DNA of 64,000 nucleotides from Hymenobacter polaris (lineage in GTDB: Bacteria; Bacteroidota; Bacteroidia; Cytophagales; Hymenobacteraceae): positions 1 to 64,000 of the forward strand of contig NZ_JABBGH010000004.1 in assembly GCF_012927305.1 (NCBI RefSeq). The letters run 5' to 3'. Positions 2,382 to 23,969 of the stretch are shown here, one piece after another (position 1 is the stretch's first letter; each line of letters opens with the position of its first letter). Under the pieces are notes generated by a model. That model saw only the letters and a program-made list of their open reading frames with translations. It searched no databases and was not told where the DNA came from. A program made the translations under genes and the position numbers.

Positions 2382-3533
2382 TTACATTCCGTACTCGCTA
2401 TCCTGCTCCTTTTCGGCCTCGCTGCGCACGTCCTGGGCTTTGCTTTTAGGGGCCATTGCCCGCGACATTTTGTGTATAGCTTGCTCCATCGTGCTCATGG
2501 TAATTGTGGATGCGTCGTGCTTCTTTTCTTCCTTGGGATAGGTCGGAGTTGGAAAGAAATTATCATCCATCGTCATATGCAGACTGCCAGCCTCACTTAC
2601 CCTTCCAGTGGTTAAATATTCGTAAGGATTTATGGTAGCGATTCCCTTCTCCGCATTGCGCTCGATTCTACCGAGACTTGCGTAAAAAACGTTGTCGTAT
2701 TTTCTTTCCTTGGCTGCTTCTTTGACTCGCTCCGGGTCGAGGTGCTGGGCTGGATTGAGCTTGGAATTTGAGCGCGCTACTTGTGTATCGAGGCGGGCAT
2801 CTTTGGCCGCAATCTGCACTTCGGTCAACACTTTTTTCTCGCGCTTGTTAGCCGCCGCTTTGGTTGTTATCTCCTCGGCTTTTTCCGCAATGAGTTGCTT
2901 GCGGGTGGGCGCGGGTCGGGTAACGTCGTGGGCACTCACGCGCCCGAACTGAATCTCCATCTGGGCCACGGCCTTGGCCTGGAACTGCACCCGGTTGAAA
3001 CGGTCCGGCGTGCTCAGCGGGTTGAGCGTAATCTTCTGCTCGGAATCGCGGGCCGATACGATAACGTGAATGTGGGTCTGGGGTCCTTCCTTGCTTTCGC
3101 TTTGCTTACCGCCGTCGGTCCCGCGGTTCTTCCGGTCGTTGTGAATGATGGCGGCCCAGACCAAGTTCGACTTACCCAGCTCGCGCCCGCTTTTGAGCGT
3201 GAAGTTTTTGGCGTAGTCTTCCATTACGTTTTGAGTGTACTTCTCCAGCGCCTTGGGATTGTCGCCAATCAGGCGCAGCTCATCCGGGCTTGGGCTCAGC
3301 ACCAGCGAGTGAAATTTGGCGTCGTCTTTTCCCAGGCCCTTAACGTTGGAATCAATCATAGCCATCACTTCCTCGCGCGTCTTTTCCCCGCTGCCGGGTG
3401 CGCCAAAAAACTTCGCTTCCTCGCCCTGCTCTTTCGCTTCTTTGGCCAGGTAATTCGTGGTCCGGGCGGAGCTGCCCTTATTGTCGTAGGCTTTTTTGCC
3501 GTTGGTTTTTGGGTTGATTATTTTGGCATACAT
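2382..3533 (-). CDS. Mobilisation relaxase-like protein (DUF5712/MobB type)
   Basis: A 383-residue protein of the type found in Bacteroidota mobilisation modules, expected to nick and carry the transferred plasmid strand. Residues 1-45 contain MYAKIINPKTNGKKAYDNKG and a TTNYLAKE segment. A histidine cluster follows: HND at about 131 and HIHVIVSARD with His at about 154 and 156, the arrangement expected of a metal-binding relaxase site. The C-terminal third is charged and probably coiled. I start at 3533 rather than 3695 because the extra 54 residues lack sense and the start then matches family N-termini. It lies 194 bp downstream of a BfmA/BtgA-like gene on the same strand, forming a two-gene mob operon. 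Confidence 0.75.
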   Translation of the reverse strand: MYAKIINPKTNGKKAYDNKGSSARTTNYLAKEAKEQGEEAKFFGAPGSGEKTREEVMAMIDSNVKGLGKDDAKFHSLVLSPSPDELRLIGDNPKALEKYTQNVMEDYAKNFTLKSGRELGKSNLVWAAIIHNDRKNRGTDGGKQSESKEGPQTHIHVIVSARDSEQKITLNPLSTPDRFNRVQFQAKAVAQMEIQFGRVSAHDVTRPAPTRKQLIAEKAEEITTKAAANKREKKVLTEVQIAAKDARLDTQVARSNSKLNPAQHLDPERVKEAAKERKYDNVFYASLGRIERNAEKGIATINPYEYLTTGRVSEAGSLHMTMDDNFFPTPTYPKEEKKHDASTITMSTMEQAIHKMSRAMAPKSKAQDVRSEAEKEQDSEYGM

Positions 3534-3727
3534 GGTGCAGCTGGAAGAGAATTTGAAGGGAAGGGCAGTCCGGTTACCCGCCGGATTGTAACCGAAAGCT
3601 GTGGCTGTTCTACTCGGGTTGCAGTGGAAGCTGTAAGCGAAGCTGGCCCCAGCCGGAAGAAAAGTTGCCCGGCTTCCGGGATGGAAACCGGGCATCCAAC
3701 CGGGTCATACAACCGGACTTTTTCGAC

Positions 3728-4468
3728 TCACGGCTTAGGTATGGCCGATGAATTGGTTGGGGGCGGAGTTGGCGTTTTCGCTGGGACTGGCGTGGCCCCG
3801 GGCTTAAAGTTGGGTTGGGGCGTAGCCAGCTTATGCTCCTTGATAAACTCGCGTAGGCGGCCGACGACTCGCTCCTCGCGTTCCTTATCTAACTTGGCGT
3901 TCTGCTCGTTCAAAAGCGTGGGCTCGTCAATCAGCTTTAGGTAGATGCGGGCGGCTAATAAGCGCGTGATAAATGCTTCCTGCTCCGTTCGAAAAAGATG
4001 CTCGAACAAGGGCTGAAAAACATCGGAGTCAATTGCTACGAGGTGGCGCAGTAAGTTGGACTCAATGGCCTCCAGGTAGGAGTAAGTAGTCAGCTGCTGC
4101 TGCTGCTCGAAAGCGTAAAGCGTCTTCTCAAAATTGCGAATCAGGGCGAACAGCCGATTGCCAATGTCGGCGTTATGAATCCGCACGTTGGCCACGCCGT
4201 CCGTGACGGCCACGCCCAGCAAAGCAAAGCCCTCTTTCATTTGCTGACTCAGGCCCGCCAGGCTCGTGTGGTCCTGCCTCGGGTCGAGCCCATTTTCCGT
4301 GAAGTAAGCAATCGCTGCGCTGGCATACTCCCCCTTCGTCATGTCCAGCTTTTCAGATTCGACCGCTAGCCGGCGGTGGACTACCACATCAATTCCGACC
4401 GTCGAAGTAGTGCCCTTTTTTGGGGCGGACTTCTTCGCTGGCCGTTTAGGCACATCAGGGCTACTCAT
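3728..4468 (-). CDS. BfmA/BtgA-family mobilisation accessory protein
   Basis: 246 residues. A basic N-terminus (residues 1-20) is followed by a compact segment, GIDVVVHRRLAVESEKLDMT then KGEYASAAIAYFTENGLDPR, typical of the ribbon-helix-helix-like part of Bacteroides BfmA/BtgA proteins that bind the transfer origin and help the relaxase. The middle is helical and the tail (from about 215) is Pro/Thr-rich and disordered. It is the first gene of the leftward mob pair, so its promoter and probably oriT lie just to the right, at 4469-4740. Confidence 0.75.
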   Translation of the reverse strand: MSSPDVPKRPAKKSAPKKGTTSTVGIDVVVHRRLAVESEKLDMTKGEYASAAIAYFTENGLDPRQDHTSLAGLSQQMKEGFALLGVAVTDGVANVRIHNADIGNRLFALIRNFEKTLYAFEQQQQLTTYSYLEAIESNLLRHLVAIDSDVFQPLFEHLFRTEQEAFITRLLAARIYLKLIDEPTLLNEQNAKLDKEREERVVGRLREFIKEHKLATPQPNFKPGATPVPAKTPTPPPTNSSAIPKP

Positions 4469-4740
4469 AGGGAAAATGGGCTAAATTCAAAAAATAACTA
4501 CTGACTACTAATATTTTATCTACATTTTAGAAACAATTAGCTAAGTAGCGTATCTAAAACGCCAGAAATGGCTGGGCTAAAACTATCTATTTCTAAAAAT
4601 AACTATTGTAAATCAAGTAATTAGGGTACTAATTCTAAGACAAACTCTGTTTATCACTGATAATCAATACGGTAGTATTGATTGAAGGTGCTCCTCTAGC
4701 TAACTATTGTTATGGGTCGTTGAATTGGCACCCTATGTCG
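4469..4740. other. AT-rich intergenic region, candidate oriT and mob promoter
   Basis: About 270 bp of clearly AT-rich DNA between the mob operon and the pyrimidine tract. Transfer origins usually sit directly upstream of the mobilisation genes, so this is the likeliest oriT location. I could not identify a nick site or convincing inverted repeat by eye. Confidence 0.35.
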
Positions 4741-7170
4741 TCCACAAGCTACAACTAGTCTAACTTATTTCTACCACTGCCTGCTGTAAACTATCCCGCC
4801 ACCACTAGCCACAGTTAGCCTCTCTCTGCCACTATCTCGCCCCTCAACATCCTAACAGATTACTGCCCACCTACTGCTCTCCTGTGGCCCAAAATCCAAG
4901 CTATCCTACCCCACCAGTTTTACCCACCTACCGCCTCTAGTCAACGACTAGCCTTTAGAATTTTCCTTTTCGATTTCTGCCGGCTACCACTTCTCTATTG
5001 ACCTACCCCGACTAACCAACCTATCTCCAGATATTTTTCTACTCAGCCCACTCAACTTCTCTTGCTTCTGAGTCACAAAATCTTCGAGCAGATTCCTCAC
5101 TTGTTCTCACCTAACCCTTCATCCTTTCCTGAGACTCCCGGCACCCAGTTAATCGGAATCGCTGATCCTACCTCTAGTAAATCTGCTCATCAACCCCCAC
5201 CGATTTTGTTTCTATAGCCTCTCCTTTCCCAGCCATCCACCCCCAAACTCTACCCCTTCCGCGGCCATCTTTCCCGCTAGCCTACTCTTTCTACTGCCGC
5301 TTCATTTCTCATCGCTTCCTACTGATTCGCCTTCACGCTCACCTACCGCTTTTACGCCTCCTCGCCACACTTTTTTGTCTTTTAGAAGCTTCTTTTTACT
5401 GGTACTTCACCCGCTAAATCCTTCCTGCGCCTCCTGCTTTTCCCTTGGCTACACGAGCACTTCCTTCCTTGATCACCTCCCTTTACTCCTCCCGCTTGAG
5501 TGACTTCCTCTCTAAAGAACCACTTCTTTCTCCTGCCTTTTCTTGCTACTCCCCGCCCCTGTTCTCCTTAGTCTGTCCTCCAGCTACTGTCACCACCCAG
5601 TTGCTTTTCACCCCACCGACTGCTCGTTTACCGCCTGCCTTTTTTCCCAAACCGGCTACTCTTCACCCCACCCATCCGGCTCTTTCTTACTCATCTTTTG
5701 CGCATCCCTCCGCCTTCCACTCTTGCTATTAACTCCAACTTTTACGCTGGCCTACTTCCGTTCCCCTGCCTACCTATTCCACGCTAAAACTTCGGATTTC
5801 CTCCTACCTAACTCCTCTATCGCCTTCCTGTTTTCCCGCCTACAACCCGCCCCTGCTCTTGACTATTTTCTTCTTCTCACTCCTAAACACCCCGCTTCCT
5901 TTTACTAATTTCTGCTACTCTCCGCACCAATTTTTACAACCTGGTCCCTGCTCCTTTTACTCGCATATACCCCCTCTGGCAATCCAACCTAGTCTCAACC
6001 CTTCTCCAGTCTACTCCTATGTTTTCCAGTCAGACTCTTCCCAATACCAGCCTATGTTACCCCATCAGTCCTTCCACCTACCTCTGCTCTGCCAGCCAGT
6101 TTCCCCTGACCTACTCACGTAAAATCTGTCTTTCCCTGCGCTGAATTTCTGGCCTTGTCCATTCCTTTTCACCCCTGCCCACCCCCAAAAATCAACTCCT
6201 AGCCTTATCATTTTCAAGCATCGCCTCCCGCTCTTTTTTGGCCGATTACCATTGAAAATCTGCGTTAGCTGCTTTCATCTTTTACTTAAAACTCCTCCCT
6301 TTTCTTTCCGCCCTTTTACCCCGGCTGCTTCAAATTTCCTCCCTTATTGCCCGACTTCTTCCGCCGCTTTACTCGTCAATTTTCCTGCTACTTCCTTCCC
6401 ATTTTTTCCTTATCCACCGGTTGCTTTTTCCTTCCGCTACTCACCTGTTGCTACCTGCCAATCTCTGCTTGACCTTGTCCTTTTTCTACATTAGCTTCCC
6501 CTAAGAACCTCGCTTTCTTTAGCCGAATCCTCCCAGTTCCCAGCATCTTTCTCTCGGATTTAACCCGGCCTTTTCGCTCGTTCTTCTCCTGCAAAACCGT
6601 TTCCTGCTCCCCTCGCTTTCCACGAACTCCTTCCGCCATTTCTTACTCGGACTCCCCTGTTTTTTTTGTCGACTACTTTCAGAATCTAGCGACCTCTCCT
6701 TCAGTTTTTCTCTTTCCTGCCCGAACTTTTCGCTGCTTTCTTTTCGCTTTCTTCCCTGTTCTGCCCGCGCTCTTTTTCCCCGCCTCGCTTCTTCAATCTA
6801 TTGAGAAAACTTGCCTACTCCTTTGCCTATTGCTTCCGAGCCGCTCCTCAGTTCAGCCGCTACCCTCCCACCTATCGAGCTCAAAAATTCTACCACCTGT
6901 TCCCATTTTTCCTGGTAACCCCTGCGCTTTTCGGCTGCTCAACCATCCCGTTTCTTACTCACCCGCCCGCCCAACTTCGCTTTCTATTCGCGTCTTCTCT
7001 GCTTCTCCTCTACCATCCCCCCCGACTTTTTACTGCTACTTCGACTCTAGCTCTGCTCACGCTACAGCTGCTCTTATCCGCTTCTATTTTACCCGACTAC
7101 CAACTGTTGGCTTGCCCCGCTTCGTACCGCACCAGGGCCGCGGCTACCTCGTTCATCCCATTTCTGTTTT
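4741..7170 (+). other. 2.4-kb gene-free pyrimidine-rich tract
   Basis: The + strand is dominated by C and T and depleted of G. Five 60-base rows counted by hand gave 3 to 8 G each and 72-83 % pyrimidine. The bias begins near 4741 and stops where the helicase gene begins (about 7175). Open frames inside it translate to Ser/Pro/Leu/Phe-rich low-complexity strings in overlapping frames and look spurious; the purine strand has no convincing gene either. No tandem repeat unit stands out. Its role is unknown. Confidence 0.7.
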
Positions 7171-7174
7171 TCGG

Positions 7175-8377
7175 ATGTCTTCTTCAGAATCTACGCGTAG
7201 CGCTACTGCCCGCAAGCAAGCCCTTCAGGACCAGGTGCTGGCCATCATTCAAGGCCGACGCCTAGCTGGCATCGCCCTGACCATGGGCCTGGGTAAGACC
7301 CTTATCGGCCTGCGCGACATGGACCGCCTGCTCACCGCTGGTCAGCTCCCCGCCCAGGCGACCGGTAAGCCCTTTCTGGTGGCGGCGCCCACCCAGGCCA
7401 TTCTGGACTCCTGGCCTCAGGAGGCACAGAAGTTTGGGCTGGCGCACCTGCTCGACCACATCGCGTTCACCACCTACCGATCACTGGGCAAAGTCCTGGC
7501 GACCGGCACTTACCAGAAGCTCTACCTCGACGAGTGCCACGCCCTGAAGGACTCGCACGGGCCGGGCCTGAAAGCCCACGCGGCCCGGAAGCGTAGCATC
7601 CTGGGCCTGACGGGCACGCCGCCCGCCCAGCCTAATTCTGAGAAAGGCCGGCTGGTGGCCACCTTCTGCCCCATCGTGGTGGACTACACCACCGACGAGG
7701 CCGTGCTCGCCGGCCTGCTCAACGACTACCGCCTAGTCGTGCACCGCCTGCCGCTGCGCACTGCGCGCGACTACGTGCTCACCACCAAGTCGGGCAGCCA
7801 GTTCACCACCAGTGAGCGCGAGAACTATGCCTACTGGAGCAAGCGCCTGGCCAATGCCGCTCAGGACCAGCTGCCGGTCGAGACGCTGCGCATCCTGCGC
7901 ATGCAGGCCTTGATGAACTACCCCGGCAAGGGCCACTACATGCGCTACCTGGCCAGCCAGCAGGTGGAGAAGGTACTGCTCTTCACCTGCAATCAGCAGC
8001 AGGCTGAAGCGCAGGCGGACCACACCTACCATTCCAAGAACAAGCACAGCCAGGCTAACCTGGACCTCTTCAACGCGGGCGACATCCCGCGCCTGGCCTG
8101 CGTGGCCCAACTCTCGGAGGGCATCAGCATCCCCAACCTGCGGGTGGGCATTATCTGGCATGCCTTCGGCAACGAGCGCAAGGCCGCCCAGCGCATCGGC
8201 CGGCTGCTACGCCTCAACCCCGACCAGACGGCCACCGTGCACCTGCTCCTCTACCAGGACACGGTTGATGAGCAGTGGGTCGCCCAGGCTCTGGAAGCCT
8301 TCGACCCCACCAAAATCAGCTACGTCGACGCGGCGAGCGAAGACTGGGAGCCAGCTAGTGGGCCCAAAGCCAGCTAA
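7175..8377 (+). CDS. SF2 DEAD/SNF2-like helicase
   Basis: A compact 400-residue superfamily 2 NTPase. Visible motifs: Walker A MGLGKT (about 37-42), motif Ia-like LVAAPTQAILDSWPQEAQKF (68-87), Walker B box LDECH (118-122), motif III TGTPP (146-150), and motif VI QRIGRLLR (339-346). Near the C-terminus a second RecA-like domain is complete (VLLFTCNQQQAEAQ, then LSEGISIPNLRVGIIWH). It resembles the small helicases of phages and plasmids that move along or remodel DNA. The frame is open from 6830, but those 115 codons are part of the pyrimidine tract and have its composition, so ATG 7175 (MSSSESTRSA) is chosen. It may act on the adjacent tract or in replication or transfer; that is inference. 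Confidence 0.8.
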   Translation: MSSSESTRSATARKQALQDQVLAIIQGRRLAGIALTMGLGKTLIGLRDMDRLLTAGQLPAQATGKPFLVAAPTQAILDSWPQEAQKFGLAHLLDHIAFTTYRSLGKVLATGTYQKLYLDECHALKDSHGPGLKAHAARKRSILGLTGTPPAQPNSEKGRLVATFCPIVVDYTTDEAVLAGLLNDYRLVVHRLPLRTARDYVLTTKSGSQFTTSERENYAYWSKRLANAAQDQLPVETLRILRMQALMNYPGKGHYMRYLASQQVEKVLLFTCNQQQAEAQADHTYHSKNKHSQANLDLFNAGDIPRLACVAQLSEGISIPNLRVGIIWHAFGNERKAAQRIGRLLRLNPDQTATVHLLLYQDTVDEQWVAQALEAFDPTKISYVDAASEDWEPASGPKAS

Positions 8378-9744: not shown

Positions 9745-10770
9745 CTACTTCGGCAGGTACTCGGCGGCCAGCATTCTGGCTACCTCCCGGTTGCGTGGGT
9801 CGCCGCTCAGCAACAGATCGGCATAGACCAGTAGCGGGAAAACGCAGTCGGGCCGCGGAGCCGGGGGTTGGGTACCCGCCGGGGTCACCAGCACCTGCAC
9901 TACCCCATTGGGGTCTGGTACCAGGCGCATCGTGCGCATTAGTTCGCCCCGCGTGGCGGAGGAATACAGCGTAAAATCCTGCGGCAGCAGGTAGCCGTCT
10001 AGCAAGAGGTGAGCCGCCAAGAGGTGAGCCGCCGGCTCGCCGCCCCAGTGTCTACCCGCCGGCAGGGGCACCTGCTGCCAGCCGTGGCGCCCTAGCTTAA
10101 GCGTAGGCTCCAGCCAGCGGTACTGGCCCGCGACCAGTTTCGGACGTACCGTTTCCCCGTAGGCGGCTACCCAGCGGTGGCGCAGCTCTGCCAGCTCCAC
10201 CAGCCGGCGCGGCGTTTCCGGTACCAGGTAACGCTGGGCCTGGAGGCTGACCAGCAGCCAGCCAATAGTCGCGATGGGCAGCCCAACCCGGGCGGCAATC
10301 GTGCGGTAAGACTCGCGCACCAGCTGGGGCTCCGTAAGTAGATGCGGCAGTAGATGCAGGCCCATCTTACCGAGTAGCAGGCTGCCGGCGGCCCGGACCT
10401 CGCGCGGTTTCGCCCGTCCCTGCACCAGCACGGTCGTGAGGTGCGTCCCTTCAGTCAGCCAGGCGTTGCCGGCCCGGTCCAGGTAGCAAGTACCCTGCGC
10501 TCGCAGGCGTGTTCCCATCGCTTCGCTGACGTAGGGTGCGACGAGCACCTCGTGCGGGGCCAGCTCGCGCAAGCCCGCCGTAGCACCTCGCCAGCCCGGC
10601 TGGGCCAGCAAACTGAATTCCGCGTGGGGCCCCAGCCGGAGCCGGGCGGGTAGTGAACCGTCGGCAGGTAGCAGCTGCACGGGTAGTTGCGGGGGAAGTA
10701 GGTCAGCCAGCGCCGTTGCGGCCGCCTCAAAAAGCGCTTGTACTTCCGGTAGTTGTCTGTTGTCTCGCAA
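9745..10770 (-). CDS. AbiEi-like protein of type IV toxin-antitoxin antitoxin family
   Basis: 341 residues. The central motif GTCYLDRAGNAWL (about 115-127) and the following VRAAGSLLLGKMGLHLLPHL, ESYRTIAARVGLPIATIGWL (a winged-helix segment near 185-205) and a WGGEPAAHLL stretch fit the Bacteroidota proteins annotated as type IV toxin-antitoxin AbiEi antitoxins. AbiEi proteins usually repress their own operon and counter a nucleotidyltransferase toxin (AbiEii). No AbiEii-like gene is adjacent on either side, so this copy is an orphan or has another role, such as a plasmid regulator. The start ATG at 10770 is followed by RDNRQLPEVQ. Confidence 0.6.
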   Translation of the reverse strand: MRDNRQLPEVQALFEAAATALADLLPPQLPVQLLPADGSLPARLRLGPHAEFSLLAQPGWRGATAGLRELAPHEVLVAPYVSEAMGTRLRAQGTCYLDRAGNAWLTEGTHLTTVLVQGRAKPREVRAAGSLLLGKMGLHLLPHLLTEPQLVRESYRTIAARVGLPIATIGWLLVSLQAQRYLVPETPRRLVELAELRHRWVAAYGETVRPKLVAGQYRWLEPTLKLGRHGWQQVPLPAGRHWGGEPAAHLLAAHLLLDGYLLPQDFTLYSSATRGELMRTMRLVPDPNGVVQVLVTPAGTQPPAPRPDCVFPLLVYADLLLSGDPRNREVARMLAAEYLPK

Positions 10771-13223: not shown

Positions 13224-13261
13224 GGGGTAGCACAAGAGTAGGAACAGAAACTATCGCTAGG
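13224..13261 (+). repeat. Tn3 terminal inverted repeat, left
   Basis: Matches the reverse complement of 21897-21934 at 35 of 38 positions and begins with the GGGG typical of Tn3-family ends. The tnpA stop codon (13257-13259) lies inside it. Confidence 0.9.
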
Positions 13262-16200
13262 CCCATTCACCAAGCGATGCTTCCCAGGGAGTGAGGGTGC
13301 GTAGAGGACGCAGCTGCCCGGCCGCAACGGCTTCGGGCAGCGTAAAGTCGTAGCGACCCAGCATATTTACGTGTTCGTGCAGCAAAGGCGAGAGGCGGGC
13401 CACATCCTCTGGATTCAAGTGCTCCTCCGTTTCCTGCCATTGCTCCAAGGCTTGTTGCAAATACCGAGTATTCCACAGCACCAAGGCGTTCACGACCAGG
13501 CCCAACGCCCCCAATTGGTCTTCCATGCCTTCACGGTAGTGCTGGCGGAGTTCGCTCTTTTTGCCGTGGAAAACGGCGCGGGTCAGCGCGTGGCGGCCCT
13601 CGCCGCGATTGAGTTGCACCAGAATGCGTCGCCGGTACGATTCGTCCTGCACGTAGGCCAGTAGATAAAGCGTCTTTTCTACCCTACCCAACTCGGCCAC
13701 CGCCCGCCCCAGCCCGGAGAGGGTACCGGCCCGCTGTAAGGTGCGCATGACAGCCGCAGCTTTCACCCGACCCAGTTTGAGCGAGCCGGCCAGCCGTAGC
13801 ATATCCTCCCAGTGGTCGCTGATGAGTTGGGCGTTGACGACATGCCGGCTTAGTTCGTTGAGGGGGCCATAATCGTCTTCCTTGCTGAGGCGCCAGAAGC
13901 GCTGGTCCGCCAAGTCGGCTAAGCGGGGGCTGAAGCGGTAGCCCAAGAGGGCGAAAAGCCCAAAAACCACCTCGCTGTAGCCGTGGGTATCGGCCATGAT
14001 TTCGCGCGGGTCCAGGCTCGTTTGCTGTTCCAGCAGCCCGGCCAGAATAAAGAGGGAGTCACGTAGCGTGCCGGGAATGACGATGCCGTGGAAGCCCATG
14101 AACTGGTCGCCCGTGAAGTTATAGTACGTCACCCCGCGCTGCGAGCCGTAGTATTTACGGTTCCACCCGGCATAAATCGTGCGCACGGGCACCACGAAAC
14201 GCATCCCGTCGGCCGAAGCCACTTCCCCGCCGCCCCAGACCTGGGCCAGGGGCAATTGTGCCTGCCCGTCCACTAACCGGGCGCTGGCAGCGGTGAGCGT
14301 TTCCACACGCACGTAGTTTTGCTGCACCCAGGACAAACGGGGCAAGGCTAGGGCTGGCACCTCGGCCCGTGCTACGGCTTTCAGGCCGATATTACAGGCC
14401 TGGGCTAGGAGCACCGCGCAGATGCTCAGCGGCAAATCAGCCGCTTTGTGCTGGCCGTCGGCCACGTGGGTAAAGGCATCGGCAAATCCCGTGAAAGCGT
14501 TCACCTCCAGCAGCAGCGCCGCCAGTTCCACTTGGGGTAACTGCTGCGTAAGCCGCGTCCGCAACTGCTGTAAGCTCTCGGGTTCTTCCTGAGCTGGTAG
14601 CGGGCTTACCCGCACATAGGGCTGGCCATCTTGCTGCCCCACGTGCAGCGCCGTGTTGCGGGGCAGGTGTTCGCGCACCTCTGCGTAGGCGACCCGCAGC
14701 TGCGTCTGAAGCCGCGTTAGCTCCACGACCGGGTCGAGCGAGCGGTCAAGCGCCCGCGCCACCGATTCCCGCGCCGCGTCCCAGGCCTCGCCCCGTAGCA
14801 TTTCCGCTTGGGGGTCGCTGTAGCGCTCACTAGCAGTCACAAAAATTTCCCGGCGGCGCAGCGCTTGGTGCAGACGGTTCAGTACGCAGAGGGTGTACGC
14901 GGCGGGGCTCACCTCGTCTCGGCTGGGAAATACCTGCCGCGTCCAGCTTTTGGGCACAAAGGGGCGGGGAGCAGTTTCCCACTTGGGCCGGCTCCGCCCG
15001 CCGGCTTCTTGGGCTTGTAAAAAGTGCCAGGCATCGAGCAGGGGCTTGGCTGAGGGGGAACTCTCGAAGGAAAGTCCGTTCAACAGAGACGGCAGAAACC
15101 GGCGCACGGTCGCGTAGCTGCCGCTCAGGGCTTGAAACTGCGGGTCGTCGGCTGGGCTGGCCAGCGCCTGCACCGCGTCGGCCGCTTCCCGCAACGAAGC
15201 TTCGCTGGTGCAACGCAGTACCTGGGCCCGCAGGCGGGCTTCGGGTACGGACTCGTCCAGCAGAATGCGCACCGCTTGTTCCAAGACCAGCGCGGCGTGG
15301 TCCAAGTCTTTGAGGGAGCGCAGCCGCTGGCGGCGCTTGGTTTCGCCCCGCAGGGCCAGCGATGTCATCAGCCCATCAAAGAGGTCGAGCACGTCATCGG
15401 TGGCCGTGCGTTCGAGGGCCTGGGCGAAGGCTAGCAGGGTAGCCAGGCGGCGTTCCTCCCCCATGCGGGCCAACGTTTGCCCCCAGGCTGCTTGGGCGTG
15501 GCGGGCCAGCCGCACCAAGCGGGCTTCGGGCAGGTCATGGAGGGAAATGTCCCCCACGCCGAGGGCCCGCACCTGGTCCAGCCGCCCTAACGCGGTCACC
15601 AAGGCAGAACTGGAAACGCGGGTCGGCGCGGTGCGCAGCAATTCCAAGCGGGTGAGTCGCTGGCCAGGCGGCACGGCCAGCAGCGATTCCAAGGCCTGCT
15701 ACTGCACCGGGTTCAACCGGTTACGGAGTTGGCGGTACAGGTGACGGCCCGTGCGTTCGCGGACCCGCGCAATCAGGCGGGCCAGCACCGTCACGCCGGG
15801 CAGCACCACGCGCTGGGCCACCAGGTGCGCGGTCGCCAAATCGAAGAGTACGCTGGGCCGCACGGGGCTGGTGAGCACCTGGGCGTAGAGCCAGCGGGTC
15901 AGGCGGAATGCCTGGCAGCCATCAAAGGCGTGAAAGCCTAAGTAGGCTACTACCCGTACCTGGTGGTCGTGCAGGGTGTTTGGCCGGGCGTACTGGTCAC
16001 GCCAGGTGTCAGCCGTCAGGTCGAGTTGTTGGGCCAGGGTTTGCACCACCACGTCCGGTACTCGCGCAGGAACAGGCAGAAATGTACCCAGAAACCGCAG
16101 GGTATAGAGTTGCACAGCACAGCCAAGCCGGGTGTAGGGCCGGCGGTAATCGGCCAGAAAACGAACGTCCAGAGGGCTGAGATAGAAGAAGCAGGCTAAT

Positions 16201-22973: not shown

Positions 22974-23969
22974 ATGCAAACCCTTGATAGTGTGATTAGT
23001 ATCGCGAATGCAAACGTGACCGGTCTGGAAATTCGGCAGCACAATGCCATTACGACAGCGCGCTACGAGATGACGGCCTGTGAGATGGACATTGTGTTCT
23101 ATCTGCTTTCGCTGCTGAAGAAGGAAGACCGCGTTGGTACCTTCTATCGGGTTAAGGTGCTGGACTTGCAGCACCTCACGGGCCGTCAGTGGAATTACCA
23201 TCAGTTTCTGGAAGCTACCTCGGCGCTGCGCTCACGCGAGTACGTGATTGAGGATAACAAGCGAATTCTGCAAGTTGGCCTCCTAGCCTCGGCGGAATAC
23301 ATCAAGGGGGAGGGGGTCATTGAGTTGGAAGTTTCTGAAAAGATTCGTCCCTACTTAATTGACTTAAAGCGCAACTTTACCTCCTTCCGGCTGCAGGCTG
23401 CCTTCAGCCTGAGTAGTAAGTATGCCAAGCGTATCTACCAGATTGCCTCGCAGTGGAAAGACAAGTCCGAGTCCCGCACCTTTACCCTGCACGATTTGAA
23501 GGTTATGCTGGCCCTGAAGGATCCCAAAGGCATTGAGTCGGAGCAGTACACCAAGGTATCCATGTTTCAGAAGTATGTGCTGGACGTAGCCGTTTCTCAA
23601 ATCAACCAGAATACCGATCTGCACATTGGCTATGAGCTTATCAAAAAGGGTCGCTCTTTCGAAAGTATTCGTTTTCAAATCAAGCAGCAGGAGCCCCAGC
23701 AGCTGCCCCTGCCCTTCGAGCAGCCGCTGGATGACTCGCGGGTGCAGATGGCGCGGCAGCGCCTAGCGGAGCTTGACATCAAGGATGCGCGCCTGATTGA
23801 TCAAATACTGAGCGAAGCCCGCATGGTTGACGAACTCTTTGCGTTTTGCTACAAGCTGAAAACTGGTAAAATAAAGGCGGTATCTAATCCGGGGGGATTC
23901 TTTTTGACGGTCATTGGCCTGCGGAAAGCCCAAAGTGGAGTACAAAAAAAGAGCGTAACTAATTACTAA
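22974..23969 (+). CDS. Rep_3-family plasmid replication initiator
   Basis: 331 residues. Two winged-helix domains typical of iteron-binding initiators (RepE/Pi type): the first includes ARYEMTACEMDIVFYLLSLL and VLDLQHLTGRQWNYHQFLEA (about 25-85), the second RLQAAFSLSSKYAKRIYQIA and FTLHDLKVMLALKDP (about 140-180). The sequence FRLQAAFSLSSKYAKRIYQ is the hallmark of the family. It binds the adjacent iterons to open the origin and, when dimeric, to repress itself. It is followed by a long terminator hairpin. This gene and its iterons are the best evidence that the window is plasmid DNA. Confidence 0.93.
   Translation: MQTLDSVISIANANVTGLEIRQHNAITTARYEMTACEMDIVFYLLSLLKKEDRVGTFYRVKVLDLQHLTGRQWNYHQFLEATSALRSREYVIEDNKRILQVGLLASAEYIKGEGVIELEVSEKIRPYLIDLKRNFTSFRLQAAFSLSSKYAKRIYQIASQWKDKSESRTFTLHDLKVMLALKDPKGIESEQYTKVSMFQKYVLDVAVSQINQNTDLHIGYELIKKGRSFESIRFQIKQQEPQQLPLPFEQPLDDSRVQMARQRLAELDIKDARLIDQILSEARMVDELFAFCYKLKTGKIKAVSNPGGFFLTVIGLRKAQSGVQKKSVTNY

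Follow-up and report, generated by a model that had tools for sequence, protein, structure and literature searches.

A 2.4-kb stretch of gene-free, pyrimidine-rich DNA adjoins the putative origin of transfer (oriT) of a mobilization operon in Hymenobacter polaris, and tracts of the same composition recur on the same side and strand of relaxase loci in this genus. The tract is defined by its composition and carries no message; it probably keeps the first DNA entering a new cell free of folds. The more specific reading that we favour, at evenly balanced confidence and largely by analogy with F, is that the tract would be the first-transferred stretch of the T-strand and would function in keeping that strand unfolded. 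No description of such a tract was found in the titles and abstract openings of the open-access literature that was searched. In what follows, the window is the whole 64,000-nucleotide stretch of contig NZ_JABBGH010000004.1 that was analysed; its relevant features are collected in Table 1.

Table 1. Coordinates of features around the pyrimidine-rich tract in the window
Feature	Position	Strand	Evidence or remark
mobA, DUF5712/MobB (BtgB)-like relaxase	2382–3530	-	Pfam PF18976, 162 bits (cut-off 25)
mobC, BfmA/BtgA-like accessory mobilization protein	3728–4468	-	NCBIfam BfmA/BtgA, 21.7 bits (cut-off 24)
oriT-like block	4642–4712	+	Inverted repeat, hairpin and conserved box
Inverted repeat of the block	4642–4652
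Hairpin of the block	4662–4683		Perfect 9-bp stem, GGTA loop
Conserved box of the block	4693–4712
Conserved segment distal to the box	4714–4757	+	Alignment across loci; blastn matches to L045 and L034 span the segment
Pyrimidine-rich tract	4764–7185	+	357.9 bits; proposed leading region of the transferred strand
Small SF2 helicase	7175–8374	+	Pfam ResIII 35.6 bits and Helicase_C 32.8 bits, above cut-offs

A strand-asymmetric, noncoding tract

The original prediction placed a strand-asymmetric pyrimidine tract without coding sense at 4741–7170, and both parts of this description hold. The best C+T segment under a two-letter score is the one listed in Table 1 (72% C+T), and a four-letter score extends it to 4583–7185; between 4801 and 7100 the + strand contains 16.2% A, 38.6% C, 11.2% G and 34.0% T. 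Control DNA of this genome, taken from beyond the window (19 stretches, 352,150 bases, consisting of the remainder of the contig and samples of other contigs), reaches a maximum of 26.6 bits on either strand, and the richest of its 684 1-kb windows has 63.3% C+T on its richer strand, the 99th percentile being 57.6%. At the right edge, C+T drops from 74% (7001–7100) through 64% (7101–7200) to 52% (7201–7300), so the bias stops at the helicase ATG (7175), as had been predicted.

No codon-phase composition was found in the tract. Its nearest relative found, L033 of Hymenobacter sp. H14-R3 (mobA DNA 76.8% identical; tract 74–79% identical in two alignments), differs from it by unphased mismatches (176, 165 and 163 by position) and by indels of which 27 of 46 are single-base. 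The tract is therefore noncoding, and a coding identity was rejected. A known RNA family was rejected as well, since an Rfam search of the whole window at gathering thresholds gave no match. Across 4500–7300, a search for direct and inverted repeats found 14 families of direct repeats, all short, and two pairs of inverted ones, leaving the purine-pyrimidine triplex that had been offered as one option unsupported. Tracts are also present in the circular plasmid records CP014769 of H. psoromatis (L093, L045) and NZ_CP094535 of H. monticola (L077, L155), so faulty assembly of a single genome does not account for it; in these two records, whose gene table is incomplete, the tracts are mostly without annotated genes, each having a single small hypothetical gene close to one end. 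In H. psoromatis, the relaxase gene next to the strong tract of L093 (CP014769, 79205–80338) has an in-frame stop and is overlain by two annotated hypothetical proteins.

Mobilization genes and a putative oriT

The product of mobA scores 126 bits against NCBIfam MobB_relaxase, under the cut-off of 200, and is called MobB-like for that reason; its relatives on Bacteroidota plasmids are annotated as DUF5712 or BtgB. The product of mobC falls slightly under the cut-off of the NCBIfam BfmA/BtgA model and gave no match in a Pfam search, and among the 20 fetched mobA loci, 19 have a mobC homologue upstream of the relaxase gene. Two hypothetical genes on the far side of mobA (826–1506 and 1718–2104) have relatives recurring near the mob regions of several Hymenobacter loci. 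Elsewhere the window contains an AbiEi-type antitoxin gene (9745–10770) and a Tn3-family transposase gene (13257–15692).

The tract had been predicted to adjoin the probable oriT side of a mob operon, and indeed mobC and the tract are separated by an oriT-like block, with its repeats on the mob side of the conserved box. By search and alignment the box is present in 17 of 19 MOBB loci; it was searched for and not found in L090 and L092 (both MOBB), L034 and L037. The hairpin of the window is much more stable than its shuffles (z of -5.4). Hairpin-like matches with up to 4 mismatches to the query occur at 17 of 26 loci, the match used for L033 being an upstream copy, and 5 more loci (L128–L131, L094) have matches with 5 mismatches that may be due to chance. 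A complete stem is present in two of the 22 matched loci, the window and L076. Changes on both sides of a pair were found at pair 6 (A-T/G-C), pair 7 (T-A/C-G/G-C/A-T) and pair 8 (G-C/A-T), and the remaining stem positions are broken in some of the 22 loci, chiefly distant ones. The build of an oriT, with inverted repeats and a conserved box beside a relaxase operon, is thus present, and from this build and its position we read 4642–4757 as a putative oriT.

Distribution of the tract across relaxase loci

Of 120 Hymenobacter genomes, 61 have matches to mobA at E ≤ 1e-20, some at several places. The MOBB set comprises 26 loci (the window, L033, 20 fetched regions and 4 further loci); these were hand-picked and are mostly the best-scoring, so the counts do not describe a random sample. 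At each locus, the 4 kb preceding the relaxase start were scored for their best C+T segment on the strand opposite the gene, which was compared with that of the other strand. The predicted strand shows a C+T excess on the same side at 25 of the 26 loci, the exception being L082 with a slight excess on the other strand. Scores are at least 30 bits at 16 loci, exceed 100 bits at 11 and are below 30 bits at 10, and the opposite strand reaches 30 bits at none of the 26. The corresponding maximum for 115 null ORFs of the same genome (at least 250 codons) is 21.8 bits, with a same-strand excess in 57%. Nine of the 20 fetched mobA regions have a strong tract on the oriT side of mobC and on the same strand (L076, L077, L078, L080, L081, L088, L090, L092, L093; the contig of L092 ends inside the tract, and the sequence of L081 reaches 0.8 kb past it), and in the strong MOBB loci the tract starts only a few hundred bases from mobC.

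Loci of two other relaxase families were scored from the start of the matched domain; 20 MOBP and 20 MOBV loci were picked for contig room, several of them for a nearby helicase copy. The predicted strand is in excess at 17 of 21 MOBV loci and scores at least 30 bits at 6 of 21 (161 bits at L037, 92 at L196), or 16 and 5 of 20 without L037, which joined the set because its tract was already known; the other strand reaches 30 bits at one of the 21 (L209, 36 bits). MOBP loci show an excess on the predicted strand at 15 of 20, and none of the 20 scores 30 bits or more on either strand. Contig ends limit L121 and L126 to about 4 kb, L204 was kept with 781 bases upstream, and L127 was excluded. No tract was seen at 15 DUF5712 loci from outside the family, of which two are incomplete, or in the plasmids of Rufibacter, Spirosoma and Fibrella that were inspected. 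At L034, where no mobA was found beside the tract, a long inverted repeat recognized by eye lies just left of the tract (about 3494–3575), with genes for the type VI secretion proteins TssC and TssD further left. We consider it highly probable that the tract is tied to the mob/oriT side of relaxase loci. Transfer does not need it, as scores stay below 30 bits at 10 of 26 MOBB and all 20 MOBP loci and the tract is unseen at the loci inspected outside the genus.

Composition persists while sequence turns over

Thirteen tracts, a set chosen by composition (the 11 MOBB loci above 100 bits with L034 and L037), contain 65–73% C+T and 8–19% G. The mobA genes of L076 and L078 are 89.3% identical in DNA, yet their tracts (5010 bp to about 5.2 kb, and 2833 bp) have in common only segments of 127 and 55 bp at 68–76% identity; despite this divergence, C+T is 66.7% in the former and 69.8% in the latter. 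Composition thus outlasts sequence, and we infer that composition, more than sequence, carries the function of the tract. At L080 and L090, whose mobA genes are 94.5% identical, the tracts align at 82% over 1.7 kb. L079 scores 34.7 bits only, though it shares 94.2% identity with L080 in the relaxase gene; at 94% relaxase identity to L080 and L090, its weak segment looks like a recent loss or replacement and provides a natural control.

Mapping the strong tracts onto the relaxase tree takes 6 changes, at least 4 of which well supported branches force, compared with a mean of 9.4 after shuffling of the labels. They cluster on the tree, so the loci are not independent. A single origin of the strong tract was not borne out.

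Predicted folding, palindromes and trinucleotides

Skewed composition by itself lowers predicted folding: random DNA 120-mers with the composition of the window tract fold at -3.6 kcal/mol, compared with -12.0 kcal/mol at equal G+C (50%) without skew and -19.4 kcal/mol at 62% G+C without skew. The real tract folds at -3.4 kcal/mol, and 65 control segments taken elsewhere in the window fold at -20.6 kcal/mol. The 13 tracts average -6.6 kcal/mol on the C+T strand and -9.5 kcal/mol on the other. Selection against folding beyond composition is hinted at by the window tract, both as RNA and as DNA (+0.94 ± 0.31 kcal/mol relative to dinucleotide shuffles for the latter), but was not upheld across the 13 tracts (+0.12 ± 0.16 kcal/mol). 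Of the options named in the original prediction, an unstructured transfer strand is the best supported, by low predicted folding, position and strand.

Avoidance of palindromes, and hence of restriction sites, was rejected: six-base palindromes stand at 0.75 in the tracts, where composition and background predict 0.81–0.84, so their scarcity matches both. CTG and CTA are described as start trinucleotides of several bacterial DnaG primases (PMC5204125), and these two show the highest z-score excess on the C+T strand, which all 13 tracts display for each of them. CCA, CAG, CCG, TAC and GCT are likewise above expectation in all 13, and the primase starts TTA and CCC are below it. The CTG excess is found on both strands, and CTA is just as dense in a small noncoding control obtained by ORF masking, which is itself biased toward stop codons. 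A design for primase sites, weakened by these controls, was retained as a side argument only.

The neighbouring helicase

Against the PADLOC defence profile PbeA, the helicase scores 73.7 bits over part of the profile only. Matches to the helicase at E ≤ 1e-20 occur in 18 of 200 genomes of the family, all Hymenobacter. The tract had been proposed as an entry track for this helicase, and the two adjoin in the window, L033 and L093 and also occur together at L034 and L037. However, a strong tract lies within 4 kb upstream of the helicase at four of 16 helicase loci (L032, L033, L034, L037) and is absent from the other 12: L030 has a weaker tract of 54 bits, L041 is readable only 1.3 kb upstream, and the rest have none. 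The helicases of L029 and L031 are 90–92% identical to that of the window, yet no tract accompanies them. Conversely, no helicase match was found in the regions fetched around five strong tracts (L076, L077, L080, L088, L090), and a sixth, L078, has a helicase remnant only. A helicase kept where the tract is absent, which the original prediction had named as the finding that would speak against it, is thus the prevailing pattern among these 16 loci; the claimed association with both neighbours stands for the mob/oriT side and fails for the helicase side. This distribution led us to reject a partnership, and an entry track for the helicase is extremely improbable as the role of the tract.

The helicase gene lies on the oriT-distal side and reads away from the MOBB relaxase gene in the window, L033, L083, L084 and L093; it is likewise placed beside MOBV at L037 (and 7–11 kb off at L210 and L211) and beside MOBP at L179, L188 and L189, with a fragment at L187. 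Exceptions are helicase fragments on the opposite side at L082 and L084, the L029 helicase, which a MOBP relaxase has on its far side, and that of L031, which reads toward a partial DUF5712 match. The helicase looks like a frequent passenger of the oriT-distal side, independent of the tract, and is a candidate leading-region gene for plasmids of three relaxase families. Copies or fragments with in-frame stops were seen at L015, L016, L018, L019 and L026.

A proposed role as the leading end of the T-strand

In the relaxosome of F, the sites for the relaxase and the accessory proteins are located on the T-strand 5' of nic. A single-stranded bubble has to form immediately 3' of nic, and the helicase also loads on this side, unwinding in the 5' to 3' direction (PMC12117103). 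The relaxase gene is typically found in the lagging region and is transferred last (PMC11541004). If, as we assume, both the placement of the sites and the late entry of the relaxase gene apply here, the C+T-rich + strand would be the T-strand. With nic placed at the putative oriT between the mob genes and the tract, and with the mob genes and this block to the left, the tract would form the leading 2.4 kb. With so little G and A, the strand has no means of folding back on itself, so it would unwind easily and stay single-stranded 3' of nic. Such a strand may ease bubble formation and unwinding, may feed readily through the coupling protein and channel, and may ease SSB coating and priming in the recipient, a benefit that would arise within an otherwise G+C-rich plasmid.

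More tentatively, and with somewhat less than even confidence, we propose that the tracts represent a composition-only transfer element: 1–5 kb of noncoding DNA next to oriT, found in a single genus with at least two relaxase families, where selection would keep the transferred strand purine-poor, hence unfolded and perhaps readily primed, while the sequence turns over almost freely. If this holds, selection would act over kilobases on the physical state of the strand that is transferred, and it would become testable whether folding of single-stranded DNA limits the start of conjugation and whether base composition alone can hold a plasmid function. In some G+C-rich plasmids of Bacteroidota, the tract would then also mark oriT and the polarity of transfer independently of sequence.

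Alternative explanations

The alternatives are taken in descending order of probability. The skew could be a functionless mutational scar of DNA that, lying beside oriT, would often be single-stranded and damaged. This explanation is unlikely; the position beside the oriT-like block, the strand asymmetry and the fast-changing sequence speak for it. Cytosine deamination should, however, lower C, which is raised to 38.5% in the tract, and the skew is unseen at the MOBP loci and in the other genera inspected, where equal damage would be expected. The bias also halts at a start codon: the four-fold sites of the helicase gene contain 61% C+T in the window and 57 and 60% at two other tract-bearing loci, compared with 59 and 60% in two tract-less copies. 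Since the bias does not extend into the four-fold sites of the next gene, regional mutation pressure is disfavoured. Distinctly unlikely is a rightward transcript acting as RNA, either a long C-rich, G-poor, Rho-loading (rut-like) leader that ends transcription around oriT or an unstructured noncoding RNA. The + strand RNA would have more C than G and little structure (900 nt of it fold more weakly than 20 of 20 shuffles), and the window tract extends to a gene start; yet a Rho termination site needs far less than 2–5 kb, and the first mechanically called ORFs past the tract vary between loci and lie in either orientation.

Transfer with the opposite polarity, in which the purine-rich strand would be transferred with the mob genes first and the tract last, draws its appeal from the fact that MOBB polarity rests on analogy. 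We consider it very unlikely, given that the relaxase gene is typically last to enter (PMC11541004) and that the F binding sites lie 5' of nic (PMC12117103), the repeats here being on the mob side of the box. A vegetative replication origin, with the tract as lagging-strand template near a Rep gene, would account for the Rep3-type initiator gene within 0.8 kb beyond the tract in L080 and L090 and for the CTG and CTA excess. It is nevertheless highly improbable: the Rep3-like gene of the window (23025–23924) is about 16 kb from the tract, and the distance and orientation of such genes vary while the tract of strong MOBB loci keeps its place near mobC.

Comparison with known systems

Rho utilization (rut) sites are C-rich, G-poor and unstructured as RNA. 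The tract would resemble them if transcribed, and differs in being kilobases long and tied to the mob/oriT side. The BtgA/BtgB (BfmA, MOBB) modules of Bacteroides likewise have an accessory gene directly before the DUF5712 relaxase gene; unlike the Hymenobacter loci, the module of pBUN24 has no C+T tract upstream of btgA. Read as the leading part of the T-strand, the tract shares with Frpo and ssi single-strand promoters and initiation sites a proposed role early on entering single-stranded DNA; these are described as acting via folded DNA (PMC11541004), whereas the tract lacks structure and lasting sequence conservation. Conjugative leading regions of the F type are similar in position: the tract borders the putative oriT on the flank that faces away from the relaxase gene, and it would be the first to enter if the polarity holds. 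In the leading regions known so far, genes for anti-defence, SSB and anti-SOS functions are described as concentrated, with folded single-stranded DNA promoters (PMC11541004); unlike these, the tract side opens with 1–5 kb of gene-free, unfolded DNA.
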